A stretch of 35,545 bases of DNA from Clostridiaceae bacterium (lineage in GTDB: Bacteria; Bacillota; Clostridia; Saccharofermentanales; Saccharofermentanaceae): the NCBI GenBank assembly GCA_012523365.1, contig JAAYIQ010000150.1:1-35545 (forward strand), in the 5' to 3' direction. Positions within the stretch are counted from its first letter, which is position 1. Each line of letters opens with the position of its first letter. The position numbers and the translations under genes were made by a program. Below the pieces are notes generated by a model. It was not told the origin of the DNA. It searched no databases and saw only the letters and a list, made by a program, of their open reading frames with translations. This document shows positions 5,025-15,722 of this stretch, piece after piece.

Positions 5025-5642
5025 ATGAAAAAGAAAGAGATAATAAGAAAGTTCGTCGTATACGGCGTTTATATCATTTTTCTGTCTGCCTTACAGGTTT
5101 CTTTTTCCGATTCCTTTTCCATTAATGGACAGGTCGCGGATTTGATGCTGGTTTTTGTAATCCTGACCGGATACCTTTTCGGGCTCAAGGACGCAATTGT
5201 CGTCGGTCTGATTACCGGACTCCTTCGTGATTATTATGCCGGGCCCGCTTTTGAAGGCGGTACCGATCAGCCCGTCGCATTGTTAGGCCTCGGAATGCTT
5301 CTGATGTTATATGCGGGAGTCATTTCGTCCGTGTTGTTTACTAAAGCTTTTCATAGAAAATTGCCTCTTGGCTTCGTTCAGGTTATGATTGTTACCGTAA
5401 GTTACAAAGTGGTCGGACACGTGTTATTTGTTATTATGCTGGCAATATCCGGCAGAGGATCGGAGTATCTGTCTTTGTTTGAGATCGTAACGGACAGCCT
5501 AATTCCGCAAATGATCGTTAATCTCTTGGCAACGGCTCCGATTTTGTTAATGTTGCGGTACATGGGTCCCTACAAGAATGGGATAAATAAGAGATTGCTT
5601 TTGGGTTCGGGTGAAACGGAGAATTTATGGCGAACAAATTAA
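5025..5642 (+). CDS. mreD: Rod shape-determining protein MreD
   Basis: 205 residues, with about five hydrophobic membrane segments. It starts MKKKEIIRKFVVYGVYIIFL, contains the family-like FSINGQVADLMLVFVI segment and GLITGLLRDYYAGPAFE. MreD is the integral-membrane partner of MreC in the elongasome; its biochemical role is unclear. It ends 16 bases inside the next gene, so coupling with the PBP2 gene is likely. The middle region carries a somewhat longer loop (EGGTDQPV) than in well-known MreD proteins. Identification rests on topology and on the mreC/PBP2 neighbours. Confidence 0.88.
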   Translation: MKKKEIIRKFVVYGVYIIFLSALQVSFSDSFSINGQVADLMLVFVILTGYLFGLKDAIVVGLITGLLRDYYAGPAFEGGTDQPVALLGLGMLLMLYAGVISSVLFTKAFHRKLPLGFVQVMIVTVSYKVVGHVLFVIMLAISGRGSEYLSLFEIVTDSLIPQMIVNLLATAPILLMLRYMGPYKNGINKRLLLGSGETENLWRTN

Positions 5643-7945
5643 TCGATAATGGCTTATATGTTTTCGATCAGGAGAACACAGGCAGCGGCCGACCGGAAAA
5701 GATCAAGCCGATCGATCGTATCAGCGAGATCATCGGCAATCGGTTTGCGCTCATGGCTTTGGCTTATGTTGCCTTCGGCGTTGCGATTTTGATATATACA
5801 ATCACTTTGCAATTATCCGGTGCGGCCGGTTCCGGGGTATCCACAGATAAGGGTGTCCCCCGTCAATATACAGTGACCGCGCCGCGAGGAGATATCATTG
5901 ACAGAAACGGTGCCGTTCTAGCATCATCAGCTGAGGTAAATTCTCTGCTGTTGGCTGAAACCGGAATGGACGAGATCGCTTTGAACGAGATGCTTTTGGA
6001 ACTTTCTTATCTTTTCGATCAATATAACGCCACGCCGGTCTCGAAAATCAGAGATTACTTGTCGATTGAACCGTTTTCTTTTTTAAAAAACGATGAAGAC
6101 GTCACGATATGGCAGACCAGTAAAAACCTTTTTGAACTTCAGGAAGCTTCCGCGAATGTCGTCGTGACACATGCCGATAAATATGTGAAGTTGGATCCGC
6201 AGGTGTTTTTCTTATATCTTCGGAAAAAATTCAATATTGACGGAAACTATTCGAATGATGAAGCTTTTCGAATTATCATGTTCCGTTACCAGATCTTTGC
6301 GGATAGTTGGGCCTTCAAAACCGGAACACCTGTTCAAATCGCGACGGATGTTCCGGATGAGTTGATCAATCTTCTCTTGGAGCAAAACTATAAATACCAA
6401 GGTTTGATTGCTTCGAAGGATTACCGTCGAGTTTATTCTCCGATGGCCAAATGGTCCTCGCATGTGATCGGGTATGTCGGCAGTATTTCCCAGGAGAGAC
6501 TGGCTGAGCTGAAAGACCTTGGGTATTCGATCAATGACATTGTCGGGCAAGCAGGGATCGAGTCTCAAATGGAGCGATACCTTCACGGCCAAATCGGAAA
6601 GAAACCATATAATGTTTGGACCGATAATATGAGCGATGGCGCATTCTATTCCGAAATGATGGGCTTCAATCCGGTCCCCGGTGCGGATGTCTATCTGACC
6701 ATTGATTCGAGAGTTCAGAAGGCAGGATTAGACGCAATAAAAGACTATATTGAAAAAGCCGCCGAAGCCGCGAGCGATCCGAATAATCCGAAATACGGGT
6801 ATAAAACTGCCTCGGCAGGAGCATTTGTGGTATTGGACGTGAAAACCGGAGCCATCATCGGGATGGGTTCTTATCCCGATTTCGATCCGAATGACTTTAT
6901 TCTGGCAATGGAGGGAGATGCGCAAGCAAAAGAACAAGTTGAGTATTATCTCGGCGTCGGCGAATACAAAGAGATGACGGAAGCGGACATGCCTCTTTGG
7001 AATCGCGCGATTATGTCACAGTACGCTCCGGGATCCACATTCAAACTGGTCACGGCGCTTGCCGCTCTTGAAAACGGATTCATTACTCCCAATTCCAACA
7101 CCGTTGTCTGCATAAGCCCGATCAAGATCGGCGGCTATCCTTTTAAGTGCCTGGAGGAGCCGAACGGAGGTCACGGGCCGTTAACTCTTCGGCAAGGACT
7201 GGCTACATCCTGCAATATTTATTTTCAACGTCTCGGCTTCGAAACGGGAATCGACAATATCGACGCTATGGGTAAACAGTTGGGGCTCGGTGAGCTGAGC
7301 GGAATTGATCTGCCCGGAGAGAATTCCGGAATAAGGGCCAGCAGAGAAACAAAGCGACTTCTTCGCGAGAATATTCATGACAGGCTTTGGATGCAGGCCG
7401 ATACAGCTCAGAGCGCAATCGGACAATTCGATAACTGTTTCACAATTCTCCAGCTGGCAAGATATACGGCGGCAATTGCGACCAACACTCTGGTTACACC
7501 TCATATCATCAAAGAAGTCGTTTCGGAAGACGGAACCGTTCTTTATGAAGGCTCTACCGAAATCGTTCCGCTGAATTTCAATGAAGAGAACCTCGCAATC
7601 ATACGCGGCGGCATGAGGGATGTTGTTACTTATACTTACGGAACCGCTTACAAATTCCTGAACAAATTCATTACAACCACCAAAATCAAATTAGCGTGTA
7701 AGACGGGAACCGCGGAAACCGGATTCGAGGATCGCAGGAAGGAATTTTCGAACGGGTTGATTATCGGATATGCACCGGCGGAAGGTGAGCCTGAAATCGC
7801 CATCGCCCTGGTCGTCGAAAAGGGCGAGTGGGGATCATCGACGGCGGTTATTATGGAAAAGATTCTGATGGCGTATTTCGGAGTGCCGGATCCGAATTTA
7901 TCCCAACCCGAGAACACGACCCCGGTAATCGGAGATATGTCATAA
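5627..7945 (+). CDS. mrdA: Penicillin-binding protein 2 (class B transpeptidase)
   Basis: 772 residues; transpeptidase that cross-links peptidoglycan during cell elongation, working with MreCD and a RodA-type glycosyltransferase. One membrane helix at about residues 40-62 anchors it. The N-terminal PBP dimer domain follows (TAPRGDIIDRNGAVLASS). The three penicillin-binding motifs are intact: STFK with nucleophile Ser at about 470, SCN at about 528-530, and KTGT from about 692. It is somewhat longer than the typical 600-700 residues, with a cytoplasmic leader of ~35 residues and an insert in the N-terminal domain. It overlaps mreD by 16 bases. No rodA is found in the window. Confidence 0.93.
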   Translation: MANKLIDNGLYVFDQENTGSGRPEKIKPIDRISEIIGNRFALMALAYVAFGVAILIYTITLQLSGAAGSGVSTDKGVPRQYTVTAPRGDIIDRNGAVLASSAEVNSLLLAETGMDEIALNEMLLELSYLFDQYNATPVSKIRDYLSIEPFSFLKNDEDVTIWQTSKNLFELQEASANVVVTHADKYVKLDPQVFFLYLRKKFNIDGNYSNDEAFRIIMFRYQIFADSWAFKTGTPVQIATDVPDELINLLLEQNYKYQGLIASKDYRRVYSPMAKWSSHVIGYVGSISQERLAELKDLGYSINDIVGQAGIESQMERYLHGQIGKKPYNVWTDNMSDGAFYSEMMGFNPVPGADVYLTIDSRVQKAGLDAIKDYIEKAAEAASDPNNPKYGYKTASAGAFVVLDVKTGAIIGMGSYPDFDPNDFILAMEGDAQAKEQVEYYLGVGEYKEMTEADMPLWNRAIMSQYAPGSTFKLVTALAALENGFITPNSNTVVCISPIKIGGYPFKCLEEPNGGHGPLTLRQGLATSCNIYFQRLGFETGIDNIDAMGKQLGLGELSGIDLPGENSGIRASRETKRLLRENIHDRLWMQADTAQSAIGQFDNCFTILQLARYTAAIATNTLVTPHIIKEVVSEDGTVLYEGSTEIVPLNFNEENLAIIRGGMRDVVTYTYGTAYKFLNKFITTTKIKLACKTGTAETGFEDRRKEFSNGLIIGYAPAEGEPEIAIALVVEKGEWGSSTAVIMEKILMAYFGVPDPNLSQPENTTPVIGDMS

Positions 7946-8009: not shown

Positions 8010-8038
8010 TTGAAGTTTAGTATCAATATTTGTACAAT
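8010..8038 (+). promoter_or_regulatory. Promoter for the MgsA-like gene
   Basis: TTGAAG at 8010-8015, a 17-base spacer and TACAAT at 8033-8038; the coding start follows 30 bases later. Confidence 0.6.
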
Positions 8039-8068
8039 GATATGGAACCGTTTAATCGGGAGGCGTAC

Positions 8069-8461
8069 ATGAAAATTGTCCTGTTGGCTGACAGCCGCAA
8101 GAATGAACTTCTGGTAAATTTCTGTATTGCTTATTCGCCGCTTTTGGCGAATCATTTGCTGTTTTCTCTTATGAATACCGCCGCTCTTTTGGAGGCATCC
8201 ACTGAGTTACAGATCAACGGAATATCTACCGACTATTCCGGCGGTTTCGATCAACTTGCTTCAAGAACCATGTTTAATGAGATCGACGCCGTGATCTATT
8301 TAAGAGACACGCAATATCCCGGATACGATGATCCGAATCCGCTTCTGAAAGCCTGCGACTATAACAGCATTCCGTATGCGACCAATCTTGCGAGTGCGGA
8401 GATTCTGATACTATCCATTGATCGCGGTGATTTGGACTGGCGCGAGTTGGTTCGCGATTAG
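8069..8461 (+). CDS. Methylglyoxal synthase-like protein, catalytic residues altered
   Basis: 130 residues from the ATG at 8069, which has a GGGAGG site; the open frame extends 13 codons further upstream but without a good site. The whole length aligns by eye with MgsA (dihydroxyacetone phosphate to methylglyoxal): MKIVLLA strand, AYSPLL, YSGGFDQL in place of the GGDQQ block (Asp61 kept), EIDAVIYLRD, and IPYATNLASAEIL closely matching the MgsA end. However, the phosphate loop TGTTG reads MNTAA, the N-terminal AHD His is absent, and the PHxPD segment with the catalytic His reads YPGYDDPNP. It is therefore an MGS-fold protein that may be inactive or have another ligand. The gene has its own promoter and sits after the mre/PBP2 cluster, a place where mgsA is found in some Clostridia. 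Confidence 0.7.
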   Translation: MKIVLLADSRKNELLVNFCIAYSPLLANHLLFSLMNTAALLEASTELQINGISTDYSGGFDQLASRTMFNEIDAVIYLRDTQYPGYDDPNPLLKACDYNSIPYATNLASAEILILSIDRGDLDWRELVRD

Positions 8462-10342: not shown

Positions 10343-12757
10343 ATGAAAGCTCCGCTTGAGTGGATCAAAGAGTTTACCAACATCAATGTTTCGGCAAAGG
10401 AATTTGCGGATCGGATGACTTTATCCGGATCAAAGACCGAGGGGATCATGGATCCCGGCTCAGGGCTTCAAAGTGTTGTTGTCGGTCAGATTCAATCCGT
10501 ACAAGATCATCCGGACTCGGACCATTTACATGTGCTTTCGGTCAATGCGGGCGGGGAGGCTCTTCAAATTGTTTGCGGTGCTCCGAATGTTTCTGTTGGC
10601 ATGAAGTGCCCCGTCGCGTTGCTCGGTGCGGTTCTTCCCGGCGGATTTGAGATCAAGAAAGCGAAATTGCGTGGAATTGAAAGCTTTGGCATGTGCTGTT
10701 CCGTTCAGGAATTGGGACTGGACCCGAAAGATTACAGGAATGCCGACTCCGATGGTTTGTGGGCGCTGGAAGACACCGCTGTTATCGGAACGCCGATCAC
10801 TTCTTACCTTGGTTTTGAGGGCGAGGTCATTGAGTTCGAGATCACGTCAAACCGGCCGGATTGTTTTTCGATTGAGGGATTAGCCAGAGAAGCTGCCGTC
10901 ACATTTGACGCGCCGTTCTCTCCGATTCTTCCGATCGTTCGCGAAGAGAGTGAGCGGTTTTCGGGAGATATTGCGCGCATTACCATTGATGCCCCGGAGC
11001 TATGTTACCGTTATTGTTCTCGAGTCATCGAAAACGTTCGAGTTGAGACTTCACCGTCCTGGATGCAAAACCGTCTTCGTGCCGTCGGAATTCGTCCGAT
11101 TAATAATATTGTAGATATTACCAACTATGTTTGTATTGAGATGGGTCAACCGATGCATGCCTTTGACCTTGAATACCTTTCCGGCAATCACATCATCGTT
11201 CGTTCGGCGGAACAAAATGAGAAAACCGTAACTCTTGACGGAATCCAAAGAGAATTGAATCCGTCGATCCTGGTGATTGCGGACGAGGATAAGGTTTGCG
11301 CCATAGCCGGCGTAATGGGCGGTGAAAATTCCGAGGTTAAGGAAACGACGGGAACGGTCCTTTTCGAATCCGCTACATTTAACCCGATTTCTGTTCGCAA
11401 AACCGCGATGGCCGTCGGATTAAGAACGGAAGCTTCTTCGCGTTATGAGAAGGGGCTGGATCCGGAGAATGCCCTCCGTGCATTGGATCGCGCGTGTGAG
11501 TTGGTTGAAAAACTAGGATGCGGAGTGGTTACCCAAGGCGTTATCGACGTGTATCCGACTAGAAGACCCACTGCGCGCATCATTTTTGACGCGGGAAAGA
11601 TTAATGTTCTTCTCGGAACAAACCTTGACGAGCAGTTTATGAGATCAAAGCTGTTGGCAATCGGGTGTTCATTTGAAGCGGAAGACGGGAAATCAATTTG
11701 TATCGCACCATCCTATCGGCCGGATCTCGAGTGTATTGCGGATCTTGCCGAAGAGGTGGCGAGATTTTATGACTATAATAATATCGTCCCAACGTTATCG
11801 GGAGGGCGACAAACCACGGTCGGCGGCAGAAACTTTGATCAGCGGATGCTCGAAAAGATCAAGGATACTATGGTCGCGCAAGGGTTTTATGAAGCGATCA
11901 CTTATTCGTTCGAAAGTCCGAAGGAGTGCGATCGGTTGTTATTGGCTTCGGATGATCCCATTCGCAATCAATTGGTTATTTCCAATCCTCTCGGTGAGGA
12001 ATTTTCCGTGATGCGTTCTTCCACGCTTCCTTCAATGCTTCGAATCGCCGGAAGAAATGCCAGTCGGTCAGTTACAGAAGGAGCTGTATTTGAGATCGCT
12101 TTTATATATTTGCCTTCGGACAGCGCCAAAGAATTGCCCACGGAACAGCGGCTTCTTTCCGCGATTCTTTTTGACGCAAATTCGGACCCCTCCGATCCCG
12201 GTCTGTTTTTTCGCATGAAGGGAGTCGTTGAAACGCTCTTTTCACATTTAAACATAACCGATCCGGAATATATTCGATCGGAAGGTCGCCCGTATCTTCA
12301 TCCGGGACGTTCCGCCGATATCGTATTACAAGGTCAAACAATCGGCTATATCGGATTTATTCATCCGGAAGTCGCCAAACTGTTCGAGGCTCCGATTGAA
12401 TCGGTCGTTGTTGTCATCGAAACGGATCCCCTTGTGAAAAACGCATCCAATGATATTACTTGCGTTCCGCTCCCGAAATATCCCGTTATATCCAGAGATC
12501 TGGCATTTATTGTCAATCGGGATGTGCCGGTCGGGTTGATGGAATCCCTGATCAGAAGTAATGCCGGCGAATTTCTTGAGTCATGCAGGCTTTTCGATGT
12601 GTATTCCGGTAAGCAGATCGACGATGCATCAAAATCCGTCGCGTTTAATTTGAATTTTCGATCATCGGAACGAACACTGACAGATTCGGATATCAATGAA
12701 TCGGTCGATCGCATTATTCAGGCCTTATCGAAGGAATTGGGAGCACAGCTTCGATAA
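10343..12757 (+). CDS. pheT: Phenylalanine--tRNA ligase beta subunit
   Basis: 804 residues, normal for bacterial PheT. Domains in order: N-terminal EMAP/OB-type tRNA-binding domain with QDHPDSDHLHVLSV and VCGAPNV (about residues 40-150), the B3/B4 editing region, B5 (GVIDVYPTRRP onward), the catalytic-like core with DLAEEVARFYDYNNI, and the C-terminal ferredoxin-fold anticodon-binding domain beginning PKYPVISRDLAFIV. It pairs with PheS, and the B3/B4 module edits mischarged Tyr-tRNA-Phe. The ribosome binding site is GGGGGA. A weak rho-independent terminator follows. Confidence 0.97.
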   Translation: MKAPLEWIKEFTNINVSAKEFADRMTLSGSKTEGIMDPGSGLQSVVVGQIQSVQDHPDSDHLHVLSVNAGGEALQIVCGAPNVSVGMKCPVALLGAVLPGGFEIKKAKLRGIESFGMCCSVQELGLDPKDYRNADSDGLWALEDTAVIGTPITSYLGFEGEVIEFEITSNRPDCFSIEGLAREAAVTFDAPFSPILPIVREESERFSGDIARITIDAPELCYRYCSRVIENVRVETSPSWMQNRLRAVGIRPINNIVDITNYVCIEMGQPMHAFDLEYLSGNHIIVRSAEQNEKTVTLDGIQRELNPSILVIADEDKVCAIAGVMGGENSEVKETTGTVLFESATFNPISVRKTAMAVGLRTEASSRYEKGLDPENALRALDRACELVEKLGCGVVTQGVIDVYPTRRPTARIIFDAGKINVLLGTNLDEQFMRSKLLAIGCSFEAEDGKSICIAPSYRPDLECIADLAEEVARFYDYNNIVPTLSGGRQTTVGGRNFDQRMLEKIKDTMVAQGFYEAITYSFESPKECDRLLLASDDPIRNQLVISNPLGEEFSVMRSSTLPSMLRIAGRNASRSVTEGAVFEIAFIYLPSDSAKELPTEQRLLSAILFDANSDPSDPGLFFRMKGVVETLFSHLNITDPEYIRSEGRPYLHPGRSADIVLQGQTIGYIGFIHPEVAKLFEAPIESVVVVIETDPLVKNASNDITCVPLPKYPVISRDLAFIVNRDVPVGLMESLIRSNAGEFLESCRLFDVYSGKQIDDASKSVAFNLNFRSSERTLTDSDINESVDRIIQALSKELGAQLR

Positions 12758-12791
12758 TTTCGGATGATATGTTCATTCGTTCTATCTGTCT

Positions 12792-12821: not shown

Positions 12822-12876
12822 ACACGCAACTTGTCGAAAATCAATCGCGTTGTCGACAATCTCATACCAGATGATT

Positions 12877-12910
12877 ATCACCTCCTGTTAGCATATGTAC
12901 AGGAGGTGAT
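12877..12910 (+). promoter_or_regulatory. Inverted repeat that masks a ribosome binding site (anti-SD mimic)
   Basis: ATCACCTCCTGT at 12877-12888 is perfectly complementary to ACAGGAGGTGAT at 12899-12910, with a 10-base loop. The 3' arm contains the complete, near-ideal Shine-Dalgarno of the ATG at 12915, and the 5' arm copies the anti-SD at the 3' end of 16S rRNA (ATCACCTCCT). In RNA this 12-bp stem would hide the ribosome binding site, as in a translational switch or thermometer. A DNA operator is the alternative. There is no poly-T tail, so it is not a terminator. Confidence 0.7.
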
Positions 12911-12914
12911 TAAT

Positions 12915-13208
12915 ATGTCAAACACCATTCAAGCGGCCATAGCTTTCCCGGTTGCGTTTATCTTTACTGTCGGAATTCTTTCGGCGGGACCGATTCTTTA
13001 TGCCCAGACAAATGACTGCGCCCGAATGAACTACGAGTATGTCAATGAGCAAAGTAAGAATACTAGTATTTACGAAGTTGGTAACATCTGTGTCAACAGC
13101 GCTGAATCCGATACGATTTATACTTCGCCCGAACGAATGCAGTATCTTATTAATTCATTGAGAGATTCGGCTGAGTTGATTGTGAAAGGGGTTGGATCAC
13201 TTTGGTAA
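12915..13208 (+). CDS. Small pilin-like (TadE-type N-terminus) membrane protein
   Basis: 97 residues starting at the ATG at 12915, which has AGGAGGTGAT 5 bases upstream; a 28-codon longer reading has no such site and would run through the hairpin. One hydrophobic segment at about residues 6-30 (IQAAIAFPVAFIFTVGIL) resembles the N-terminal helix of TadE/TadF and Flp-type pseudopilins. The rest is a small polar exported-looking domain with two cysteines. It is the first of three overlapping genes of similar design, whose translation may be controlled by the hairpin over its ribosome binding site. No precise family is recognised; function is unknown, with surface or secretion pseudopilin the best guess. 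Confidence 0.7.
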   Translation: MSNTIQAAIAFPVAFIFTVGILSAGPILYAQTNDCARMNYEYVNEQSKNTSIYEVGNICVNSAESDTIYTSPERMQYLINSLRDSAELIVKGVGSLW

Positions 13209-14611
13209 AAAAGAGAAGAAGTAACCAACGCGGCGGAGCGATGCTATTTTTATGTATCATCATGAGTGCGGTCATTCTTTCCCAGAGTATTCTTTACAGA
13301 GGCGTTATGCTTCGTTCCGATGAAGTTGAACTTACAAGAGCCGCACACCTTCAGGCCGAGAATATCCTCAGCGGGTATAACCGTGTTCTTCTTAAGCATT
13401 ACGGTGTGTATTGCTACGAAGAATTGGTATTAAACCGACTCATATTCGACACGTGCTGCAGAGTCGACCAAATCGAAACGTTCGAAATCTCAGCGGGCAG
13501 AAGACTATCTGCGGATGATCTTGAAAAAATTATCAATGATTATATGAAAACTCGATTCCCCGCGATGATGGGTAATGAACTTCTGACTCGAATCGGATCA
13601 GCTTTGGGGAATACACGAGATTCCGATTTGATTAAGAAGGCGGAGAAGAGTGGATCCGGAATTTTGAAGAGTTATATGAAGGAATATTTATCATCAACCG
13701 ATAATTGGGCATCCATTTTTGATAGCATTGAGAATTTCATTGATCTGGTCGACTATGACAACAAGCTTGCCGACTTCAAGGATTTTATCGATGATTTGAA
13801 GGAAACCATGAAGAGAGTGGGTACCCTTAAACTTCAGGACGGAAAAGGAGCGATCAAACTCGATTTTTTCGATCCGGACAGCATCGCTCAATTGTTTGGT
13901 GTATTATCCTGCTCGATTGATTCGGATGCTCCGGATTTTCTGAGCTACCTCTATATAAATAAGTATGCCGCTTCGCTTTTCGATTCCGAACTGGAAAGTG
14001 TCAAGAGTGGAACGATTACAGCACAGGAGTCAAATATTTTCGGAACATCGTTCATAGATATAAACGGAGAAAACAAGGCAGATATCGAACATCTTCTTAC
14101 CGGAAAACAGGGAAGCAATGCGGTAAATATATCCAAAACGCTTGTATTTTCAGCAAGAGCATTGTTGAATCTGGGAGCTTTTCTTCTGGACGAAGACAAA
14201 CTGTCTAAATCGGAAGGAGTCGCCGATATCATAGCCGTTTGCGTCGCGGCGTTGTCGTCCGGAACGATAGTGATTGATCCTTCCGTGATCAAGTATCTGG
14301 TCATTGTCACCTGGGCATTACAACAGAGCATTACTGATTTAAATGTTCTGATGAAGGGCGGCGAGGTGACGGTCATCAATCATAGTTCTCTGAATGATAA
14401 GGACGGTGTCAAAGCATCGATGAGCACGAGTTATCGAGATTATCTCGAGATTTTTCTGCTGTTTGTTCCGCGAAATCTATTGCTTCAAAGAATGATTGAT
14501 ATTTTTGAACGATATTCAACAGGAGGTTTGTATGTTTCCGTATACACAAAAGCACGATATAAAGGAAGAGAATTTATGCGAGAAGAATGCTATGACTCAT
14601 ACAGAGTGTAG
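13202..14611 (+). CDS. Tad-locus-like membrane-anchored surface protein (DUF5702-like)
   Basis: 469 residues. The start is a TTG at 13202 overlapping the previous stop by 7 bases, with AAAGGGG 10 bases upstream. After a basic N-terminus with GG (NQRGGAMLFL) comes one membrane helix at about residues 13-33, then LTRAAHLQAENILSGYNRVLLKHYGVY. That last pattern is like the DUF5702 proteins that accompany TadE/TadF pilus genes in Clostridia. A second hydrophobic pair lies at about residues 340-380 (ADIIAVCVAAL, YLVIVTWAL). It is probably exported and anchored. No catalytic motif is seen. The family match is from memory of the N-terminal pattern and should be regarded as moderate. Confidence 0.65.
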   Translation: MVKKRRSNQRGGAMLFLCIIMSAVILSQSILYRGVMLRSDEVELTRAAHLQAENILSGYNRVLLKHYGVYCYEELVLNRLIFDTCCRVDQIETFEISAGRRLSADDLEKIINDYMKTRFPAMMGNELLTRIGSALGNTRDSDLIKKAEKSGSGILKSYMKEYLSSTDNWASIFDSIENFIDLVDYDNKLADFKDFIDDLKETMKRVGTLKLQDGKGAIKLDFFDPDSIAQLFGVLSCSIDSDAPDFLSYLYINKYAASLFDSELESVKSGTITAQESNIFGTSFIDINGENKADIEHLLTGKQGSNAVNISKTLVFSARALLNLGAFLLDEDKLSKSEGVADIIAVCVAALSSGTIVIDPSVIKYLVIVTWALQQSITDLNVLMKGGEVTVINHSSLNDKDGVKASMSTSYRDYLEIFLLFVPRNLLLQRMIDIFERYSTGGLYVSVYTKARYKGREFMREECYDSYRV

Positions 14612-15722
14612 CGTCAATTATACGATCAAAGGAATTCGGGATAGAGATGGCACGGCAGTTTGCGGCCGAGTGAGGTCCGGCAAGGGGACGATCATTTTGG
14701 AAATGGCGATCACGGTTCCGATCGTTCTGATCACGTCTTTGGTGATCCTGTTTTGTATTAATTGCGTGAAGGCGGATGTCGCGTTATCACAGGCTGTGGA
14801 TCAGGTAACCAACGAAGCGTCTTTGGCCATGCCGATCATGGATGTCGGCTTGGATATCATATCCGAGGGGTTATCGGATATCAACAAAGGAAAACTTGCA
14901 GACGGAGAGTTGAATGAAACGCTGTCCAAAGCTACTCATGCGATCGGATTTGTATCGGCCTTGTCGGAGCATATCGGGATAGAAGGCGAAGACATTTTCG
15001 GAACACTGATTTTCGGGAAGTTCATCAGGGATCAGATCGTAAACACATTCGAAGGAATATGTAGTAACGACATCATCTATCGGTCGATTGATAATATCAG
15101 CGTATATGTTGATTATGACGAGAGAAACAGAGTCGTTAACCTGGAAGTCTATTATTGTTGGGTTACACCATTCAGAGAAATCAACAAGAAGATTATTTCC
15201 GCAGTTCCGATTTACGGAGATCTGAACCTGACACTTACGGACAACCAATCATCCGATCAGGCGGATGCGATTTGGGACAAGAGCAACTTTGAACGCGGGC
15301 ACTATTTTCGTGAGTTGTATGGGGCAAATCTTCCGGCATCGTTTCCGGTGATATCATCCTGGAACAAAGGAACGGCTACATCGATAAAGAGTATCGATTT
15401 GACAGCGCCCCATTATCAGGACGGCTCCGGGCTCGAGAAAAAGATCATTGGACATATTAATGATTTGGCTCGCTATAACGGAACCGATAAACCATGGGGA
15501 AAAGATGAGATCAACATCAGAAACTCCGACATCAATAACAGAGTCCTGATCATAATTATTCCCGAGAATTCGACTGAATCAGCACTTAATGAAATGGAGG
15601 AATATTTCGAATACGCCCGGACGAAAGGTGTGGATGTAATATGTAAGAGACATGGTGTTTCCGAGAAATACATGACCAACACGGACGCAGATAATGATGA
15701 AGGCCAAACCGGGGGAGACTGA
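14532..15722 (+). CDS. TadE-like pseudopilin with class III leader
   Basis: 396 residues from the ATG at 14532, which has AGGAGG nearby; it overlaps the previous gene by 80 bases. The key feature is SGKGTIILEMAITVPIVL: a Gly at about residue 52, and a Glu at +5 of the following hydrophobic helix, which is the prepilin peptidase signature of TadE/TadF and type IV pilins. The ~50-residue pre-sequence is unusually long; an internal ATG at 14592 would shorten it to ~32. The exported part of about 320 residues is polar, with a repeated acidic and Asn-rich composition, ending in a hydrophilic tail. No TadA ATPase, TadB/C platform or prepilin peptidase gene is in the window. Confidence 0.68.
   Translation: MFPYTQKHDIKEENLCEKNAMTHTECSVNYTIKGIRDRDGTAVCGRVRSGKGTIILEMAITVPIVLITSLVILFCINCVKADVALSQAVDQVTNEASLAMPIMDVGLDIISEGLSDINKGKLADGELNETLSKATHAIGFVSALSEHIGIEGEDIFGTLIFGKFIRDQIVNTFEGICSNDIIYRSIDNISVYVDYDERNRVVNLEVYYCWVTPFREINKKIISAVPIYGDLNLTLTDNQSSDQADAIWDKSNFERGHYFRELYGANLPASFPVISSWNKGTATSIKSIDLTAPHYQDGSGLEKKIIGHINDLARYNGTDKPWGKDEINIRNSDINNRVLIIIIPENSTESALNEMEEYFEYARTKGVDVICKRHGVSEKYMTNTDADNDEGQTGGD

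Follow-up and report, generated by a model that had tools for sequence, protein, structure and literature searches.

We analysed a stretch of 35,545 nucleotides (the window) from a 2.0 Mb assembly (198 contigs) of a bacterium of the family Saccharofermentanaceae. As can be seen from Table 1, pheT is followed on the same strand by an operon, which starts with a small gene for a TadE-like or pseudopilin-like protein and continues with a gene for a DUF5702 protein and a third gene. No strong terminator was found after pheT, the best candidate being the weak terminator-like site listed in the table. In the product of the third gene, an N-terminal pilin-like membrane segment is joined to a C-terminal PF21111 domain (CDI toxin EC869-like, with a restriction-endonuclease-like fold). 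Elsewhere in the window, a penicillin-binding-protein-like gene (5627–7945) has just downstream of it a gene for a methylglyoxal-synthase-like protein (8030–8461; NCBIfam E 1e-18, below the equivalog cut-off), and a metallo-beta-lactamase (MBL) gene adjoins pheS on its upstream side.

The DUF5702 gene is present in 109 of 115 genomes of the family. For comparison, 106 of the genomes that have it were used, in each of which we examined the sequence preceding the small gene (g1 to g5 below are genus labels for these genomes, as given by the search tool). The same kind of small gene lies downstream of the promoter in these 106 loci. The upstream neighbour is pheT at 65 loci and the MBL gene at 37 (102/106), and it is co-directional wherever it was identified. 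The alternation of pheT and the MBL gene upstream of the operon could be explained by loss or movement of pheST.

Table 1. Features of the region between pheT and the operon, and the genes on either side (RBS, ribosome binding site; SD, Shine-Dalgarno sequence)
Feature	Position	Strand	Remarks
pheT, co-directional housekeeping gene, putative source of read-through RNA	10343–12757	+	804-aa ORF, ends 157 nt before the ATG at 12915
Weak terminator-like site 3' of pheT	12761–12779	+	−6.3 kcal/mol, poor T tract; about as frequent in shuffles
TTGTCG box, distal (0A-box-like)	12831–12836	+	in relatives, several copies of TTGTCG on a 10-bp lattice
TTGTCG box, proximal (0A-box-like)	12850–12855	+	39 nt upstream of the −10; offset 39 in 6/6 g1/g3/g5 genomes
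Left arm of hairpin, ATCACCTCCTGT (anti-SD mimic)	12877–12888	+	12/12 pairs, covariation; carries the TG of the extended −10 (TGT, 12886–12888)
Hairpin loop, TAGCATATGT	12889–12898
−10 element TAGCAT, in the loop, after TGT	12889–12894	+	predicted; fixed TAnnnT-to-TTGTCG offset in relatives
Right arm of hairpin, ACAGGAGGTGAT, SD region	12899–12910	+	SD is AGGAGGTGAT at 12901–12910
Predicted start of the operon's own mRNA	12899–12901	+	from the position of the −10
First gene, 97-aa TadE-like/pseudopilin-like protein	12915–13208	+	Pfam TadE E 0.012, below cut-off
Second gene, DUF5702 (PF18960) protein	13202–14611	+	Pfam E 4.4e-15; overlaps the stop of the first gene
Third gene	14532–15722	+	PF21111 E 2.3e-12, above cut-off; putative start chosen by AGGAGG at ~14521

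The hairpin over the Shine-Dalgarno sequence

A sequence-only reading of this DNA had proposed that a perfect 12-bp stem encloses the SD of the gene with its ATG at 12915, and this was borne out by the pairing of the two arms (12/12 pairs), by the fold and by the energy needed to open the SD. The hairpin folds with −22.5 kcal/mol (z −3.6), and an equally good fold was seen in 0 of 200 shuffles. The SD is sequestered on the longer transcript: the calculated cost of opening it was 16.6 kcal/mol for RNA begun inside pheT, and 16.7 kcal/mol when the pheT read-through RNA was taken from −90 to +30. In a sample of 90 genes with an SD from this genome, the 12915 gene itself included, this SD was by far the hardest to open; the next one required 8.8 kcal/mol, and the mean was 3.8 kcal/mol (sd 2.2).

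The left arm had also been described as a copy of the anti-SD of 16S rRNA. The copy is there, but it simply follows from pairing with a near-consensus SD; indeed, in relatives with GGGGGT or AGGGAG as SD, the left arms match those SDs instead.

Across the family (Saccharofermentans relatives), the hairpin recurs at this gene, and pairing of its arms, the conservation of which the same reading had proposed to examine, is kept through compensatory and G–U changes. In an alignment of 16 g2 loci (A2), pairing is kept in 97% of cells, and both sides have changed in 18 cells, compared with 6.2 after shuffling; in a second alignment, of 11 g1/g3/g4/g5 loci (A3), 92% of cells pair, and both sides have changed in 7, compared with 2.2. 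As the rows of both alignments were picked for strong hairpins, the percentages paired are partly circular, the compensatory changes less so. The covariation scores of A2 and A3 exceeded those of all 500 shuffles and of all slid versions. When arms were swapped between loci, they paired as well as the loci's own arms in 0 of 5,000 permutations for the g2 hairpin loci and in 20 of 5,000 for g1/g3/g5; for g4, where the hairpins are weaker, the difference was not significant (598/5,000).

Apart from the SD, the −10 and the pairing itself, neither the stem sequence nor the loop is conserved, and loop length varies widely between species. The SD, however, lies under the stem in all hairpin loci. 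G–U pairs are frequent and on the sense strand (at column 14 of A2, for example, in 10 of the 16 loci), and this speaks for the repeat acting as RNA rather than as a DNA palindrome.

The promoter of the operon

The two TTGTCG boxes in the window are 19 bp apart. In relatives, the offset from TTGTCG to a TAnnnT element is 39 nt in 6/6 g1/g3/g5 genomes, 39 (62%) or 49 (33%) in g4, and 40, 30 or 29 in most g2 genomes; offsets of 39, 40, 49 and 50 dominate across the family. The density of TTGTCG in upstream coding controls was 0.007 per 75 nt. TAnnnT is preceded by TG in g1, g3, g4 and g5, which gives a conserved extended −10 (TGnTAnnnT), here TGTTAGCAT at 12886–12894, straddling the border between the left arm and the loop.

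The promoter named in the sequence-only reading had paired TTGTCG at 12850 with GATTAT at 12873. GATTAT is present, but TAnnnT stands at its offset in 0/6 g1/g3/g5 genomes, and an offset of 23 is nearly empty in the family, whereas TAGCAT at 12889 is at the conserved offset (39, 6/6). That promoter was therefore rejected, since its spacing is not conserved in relatives.

By the position of the −10, the operon's own transcripts should start at ~12899–12901, i.e. 6–7 nt past the −10 and after the left arm; they should lack the left arm because the −10 sits at the border of left arm and loop. For RNA from this predicted start, the calculated cost of opening the SD is 3.5 kcal/mol. The leader would be 14–16 nt long with the SD at its extreme 5' end, which is unusual though possible. 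The hairpin tracks the −10: where the −10 is located between −35 and −52 relative to the ATG, the stem moves too, and the right arm stays downstream of the −10. The transcript from the operon's own promoter should be without the left arm in nearly all relatives.

The TTGTCG boxes resemble the Spo0A (0A) box, the core of which is TGTCGAA: TTGTCG agrees with this core in its first bases, the contacted G, C and G among them (PMC3485338). In most relatives the copies are 10 bp apart. However, the AA after TGTCG is not conserved in the boxes of the family. The Spo0A DNA-binding domain is encoded in the genome in a single protein of 201 aa (L133:7591–8196, minus strand), in which the Spo0A C-terminal domain is the sole Pfam match (PF08769, E 5e-9), with no receiver match; across the VER..R region, the protein weakly matches the Spo0A structure 1lq1. 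Such a protein is present in 31 of 33 genomes searched. It could be the regulator of the boxes, although, unlike Spo0A, this candidate is diverged and has no receiver, and its binding to the boxes is a prediction. In a whole-genome search for a regulon, closely spaced TTGTCG pairs elsewhere amounted to two probable chance matches, of which one falls within a coding frame. The pattern of box plus extended −10 recurred at one other site, which is GC-rich and probably also due to chance. With so few, probably chance, matches elsewhere, the promoter looks dedicated to the TadE-like/DUF5702 operon.

Exchange between hairpins and terminators

Each locus received two scores, one for the cost of opening the SD in the read-through RNA (cut-off 11 kcal/mol) and one for the best intrinsic terminator in the interval from the upstream gene to the −10 (cut-off −10 kcal/mol). 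By these scores, 37 of the 106 loci have the hairpin only, 50 a terminator only, 2 both and 17 neither, the last class depending on the cut-offs, with several loci borderline. The Spearman coefficient for hairpin versus terminator scores was 0.70 (106 loci). A Pagel-type comparison on a tree built on ~160 residues of the same operon favoured dependent over independent evolution (LR 38.9, 4 df, p ~7e-8), and the dependent model was significant at four other pairs of cut-offs too (p 1e-5 to 1e-9). The fitted rate of hairpin loss was 9.1 with a terminator and 0.24 without one. With terminators scored a little less strictly, independent contrasts gave p 0.013. One locus (L098) keeps a strong hairpin next to a terminator with an interrupted T tract. 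At four g4 loci (L015, L018, L021 and L045), the stretch with the TTGTCG boxes itself forms a terminator hairpin, which lies between the boxes and the −10 (about −72 to −45 relative to the ATG).

The comparison thus indicates that, in the family, the hairpin takes the place of a strong terminator behind the upstream gene, and vice versa. Such an exchange would be expected if both do the same job, i.e. shielding the operon from upstream housekeeping transcription.

Probable insulation from read-through and its alternatives

We consider that the hairpin is probably best explained as a read-through insulator embedded in the promoter. RNA polymerase would run past pheT, which lacks a strong terminator, and the read-through RNA, carrying both arms, would fold into the 12-bp hairpin that buries the entire SD. 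The TadE-like first gene would then be left untranslated from this RNA, and the overlapping DUF5702 gene would probably be held low by coupling. The TTGTCG boxes and the extended −10 would span the left arm and the loop, and the operon's own transcripts, beginning at or just before the SD, would be freely translated without the left arm. With its own transcripts unmasked and the read-through RNA masked, expression of the operon would require activity of its own promoter. The downstream genes of the operon have possible RBSs of their own, and could be translated from read-through RNA.

An alternative that we regard as unlikely, but the most serious, is that the hairpin mainly serves the upstream gene as an intrinsic terminator, overlapping the promoter and the RBS, and stops the polymerase instead of, or besides, ribosomes. 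The replacement of upstream terminators by the hairpin in evolution would fit this, the purpose being the same, exclusion of upstream transcription. In g2, T makes up 5.6 of the 8 nt preceding the ATG in hairpin genomes and 3.4 in the others (p 1.3e-8), and TTTT is found in 18 of 26 g2 hairpin genomes; in many g2 species the hairpin may also terminate transcription, because a T-rich stretch follows the stem. However, TTTT occurs in only 2 of 7 g4 hairpin genomes, and what is common to every hairpin locus is an SD covered by the stem. In the window, TAATATGTC follows the stem. It holds no T tract, and by the definition of a terminator that we used (at least 5 T in 8), the hairpin does not qualify. 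Because of this missing T tract, translational masking of the read-through RNA is most likely here. It is also possible, though improbable, that the hairpin acts on the operon's own mRNA as a regulated translational switch (an RNA thermometer, a riboswitch, or a structure opened by a protein or a helicase), opening by heat, a ligand or a protein being what the sequence-only reading had put forward. The geometry is that of a classic SD-masking hairpin, and a very stable one; graded RNA thermometers, for their part, differ from a 12-bp perfect stem of −22 kcal/mol. Against a switch, the start predicted from the conserved promoter falls beyond the left arm, loci with a terminator have lost the hairpin, contrary to expectation for a sensor, stem and loop sequences are free to vary as described above, and a search of the window with Rfam 15 returned only two tRNAs, with no match to a riboswitch or thermometer family. 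A caveat of the same reading, that the hairpin would form on read-through RNA only, does better than the regulated switch once it is combined with the different promoter. Its corollary, a predicted difference in translation between long read-through transcripts and short ones from the operon's own promoter, agrees with the calculated opening costs (16.6–16.7 versus 3.5 kcal/mol), even though the promoter it named did not hold.

The inverted repeat does overlap the promoter, including the −10, and might be taken for the DNA operator of a dimeric repressor. This is very improbable, as the common G–U pairs break the DNA palindrome, the arms drift with compensation, loop length differs widely among species, and the hairpin is exchanged with terminators. 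Even less credible is a chance likeness of a strong SD to an upstream pyrimidine tract. The pattern CACCTCC-N4..34-GGAGGTG has one site in the genome and its reversed control also has one, and the 7-bp core match on its own is near chance genome-wide. The earlier claim that the match is unlikely by chance stands for the 12-bp match centred on the SD, which is not chance: it is the outlier of the 90 genes and is conserved with covariation. Chance similarity is refuted by the comparative data.

An insulator of read-through within the promoter has parallels in bacteriophage T4. Long upstream transcripts of the T4 genes e (lysozyme), soc and 49 and of the homing endonucleases I-TevI/mobE fold a hairpin over the RBS (PMC3014915, PMC2988022). 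For e and I-TevI, early read-through RNA masks the RBS, and a late promoter within the 5' arm frees it (PMC3014915, PMC2988022). As in these genes, read-through RNA would hide the SD under a hairpin, which here is a prediction. The T4 cases, in contrast, are experimentally proven temporal switches in phage polycistronic transcription, whereas the present hairpin belongs to a bacterial chromosomal operon beside pheT or the MBL gene and alternates with an intrinsic terminator across the family. Fold-back inhibition in IS10 protects the insertion element from impinging transcription. IS200 uses one stem–loop as a terminator while another occludes the RBS, against impinging transcription (PMC3196728). 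The purpose, keeping outside transcription from expressing a gene, would be the same here. Unlike IS200, the operon involves no mobile element, the terminator and the hairpin substitute for each other in different species instead of acting jointly, and the −10 of the promoter lies within the hairpin. An incomplete literature search found no chromosomal operon of such a design and no exchange of hairpin and terminator; precedents may exist.

We tentatively suggest, while thinking it somewhat doubtful in full, that in the family ~35 bp serve simultaneously as promoter −10, RBS, mask of read-through RNA and, in many species, intrinsic terminator of the upstream operon, in back-and-forth evolution with a separate terminator. 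The borders of operons are usually credited to terminators. Here, a conserved translational insulator seems to stand in for a terminator, with the promoter hidden within it. Should the suggestion hold in full, fold-back insulation would be a general substitute for terminators at the borders of neighbouring operons, one that has been overlooked. For its part, the apparent insulator predicts that certain genes show up in RNA-seq as transcribed, by read-through from pheT, but are not translated, so that operon maps from RNA-seq would mislead. The exchange of hairpin and terminator over ~100 genomes makes the idea of an insulator directly testable.
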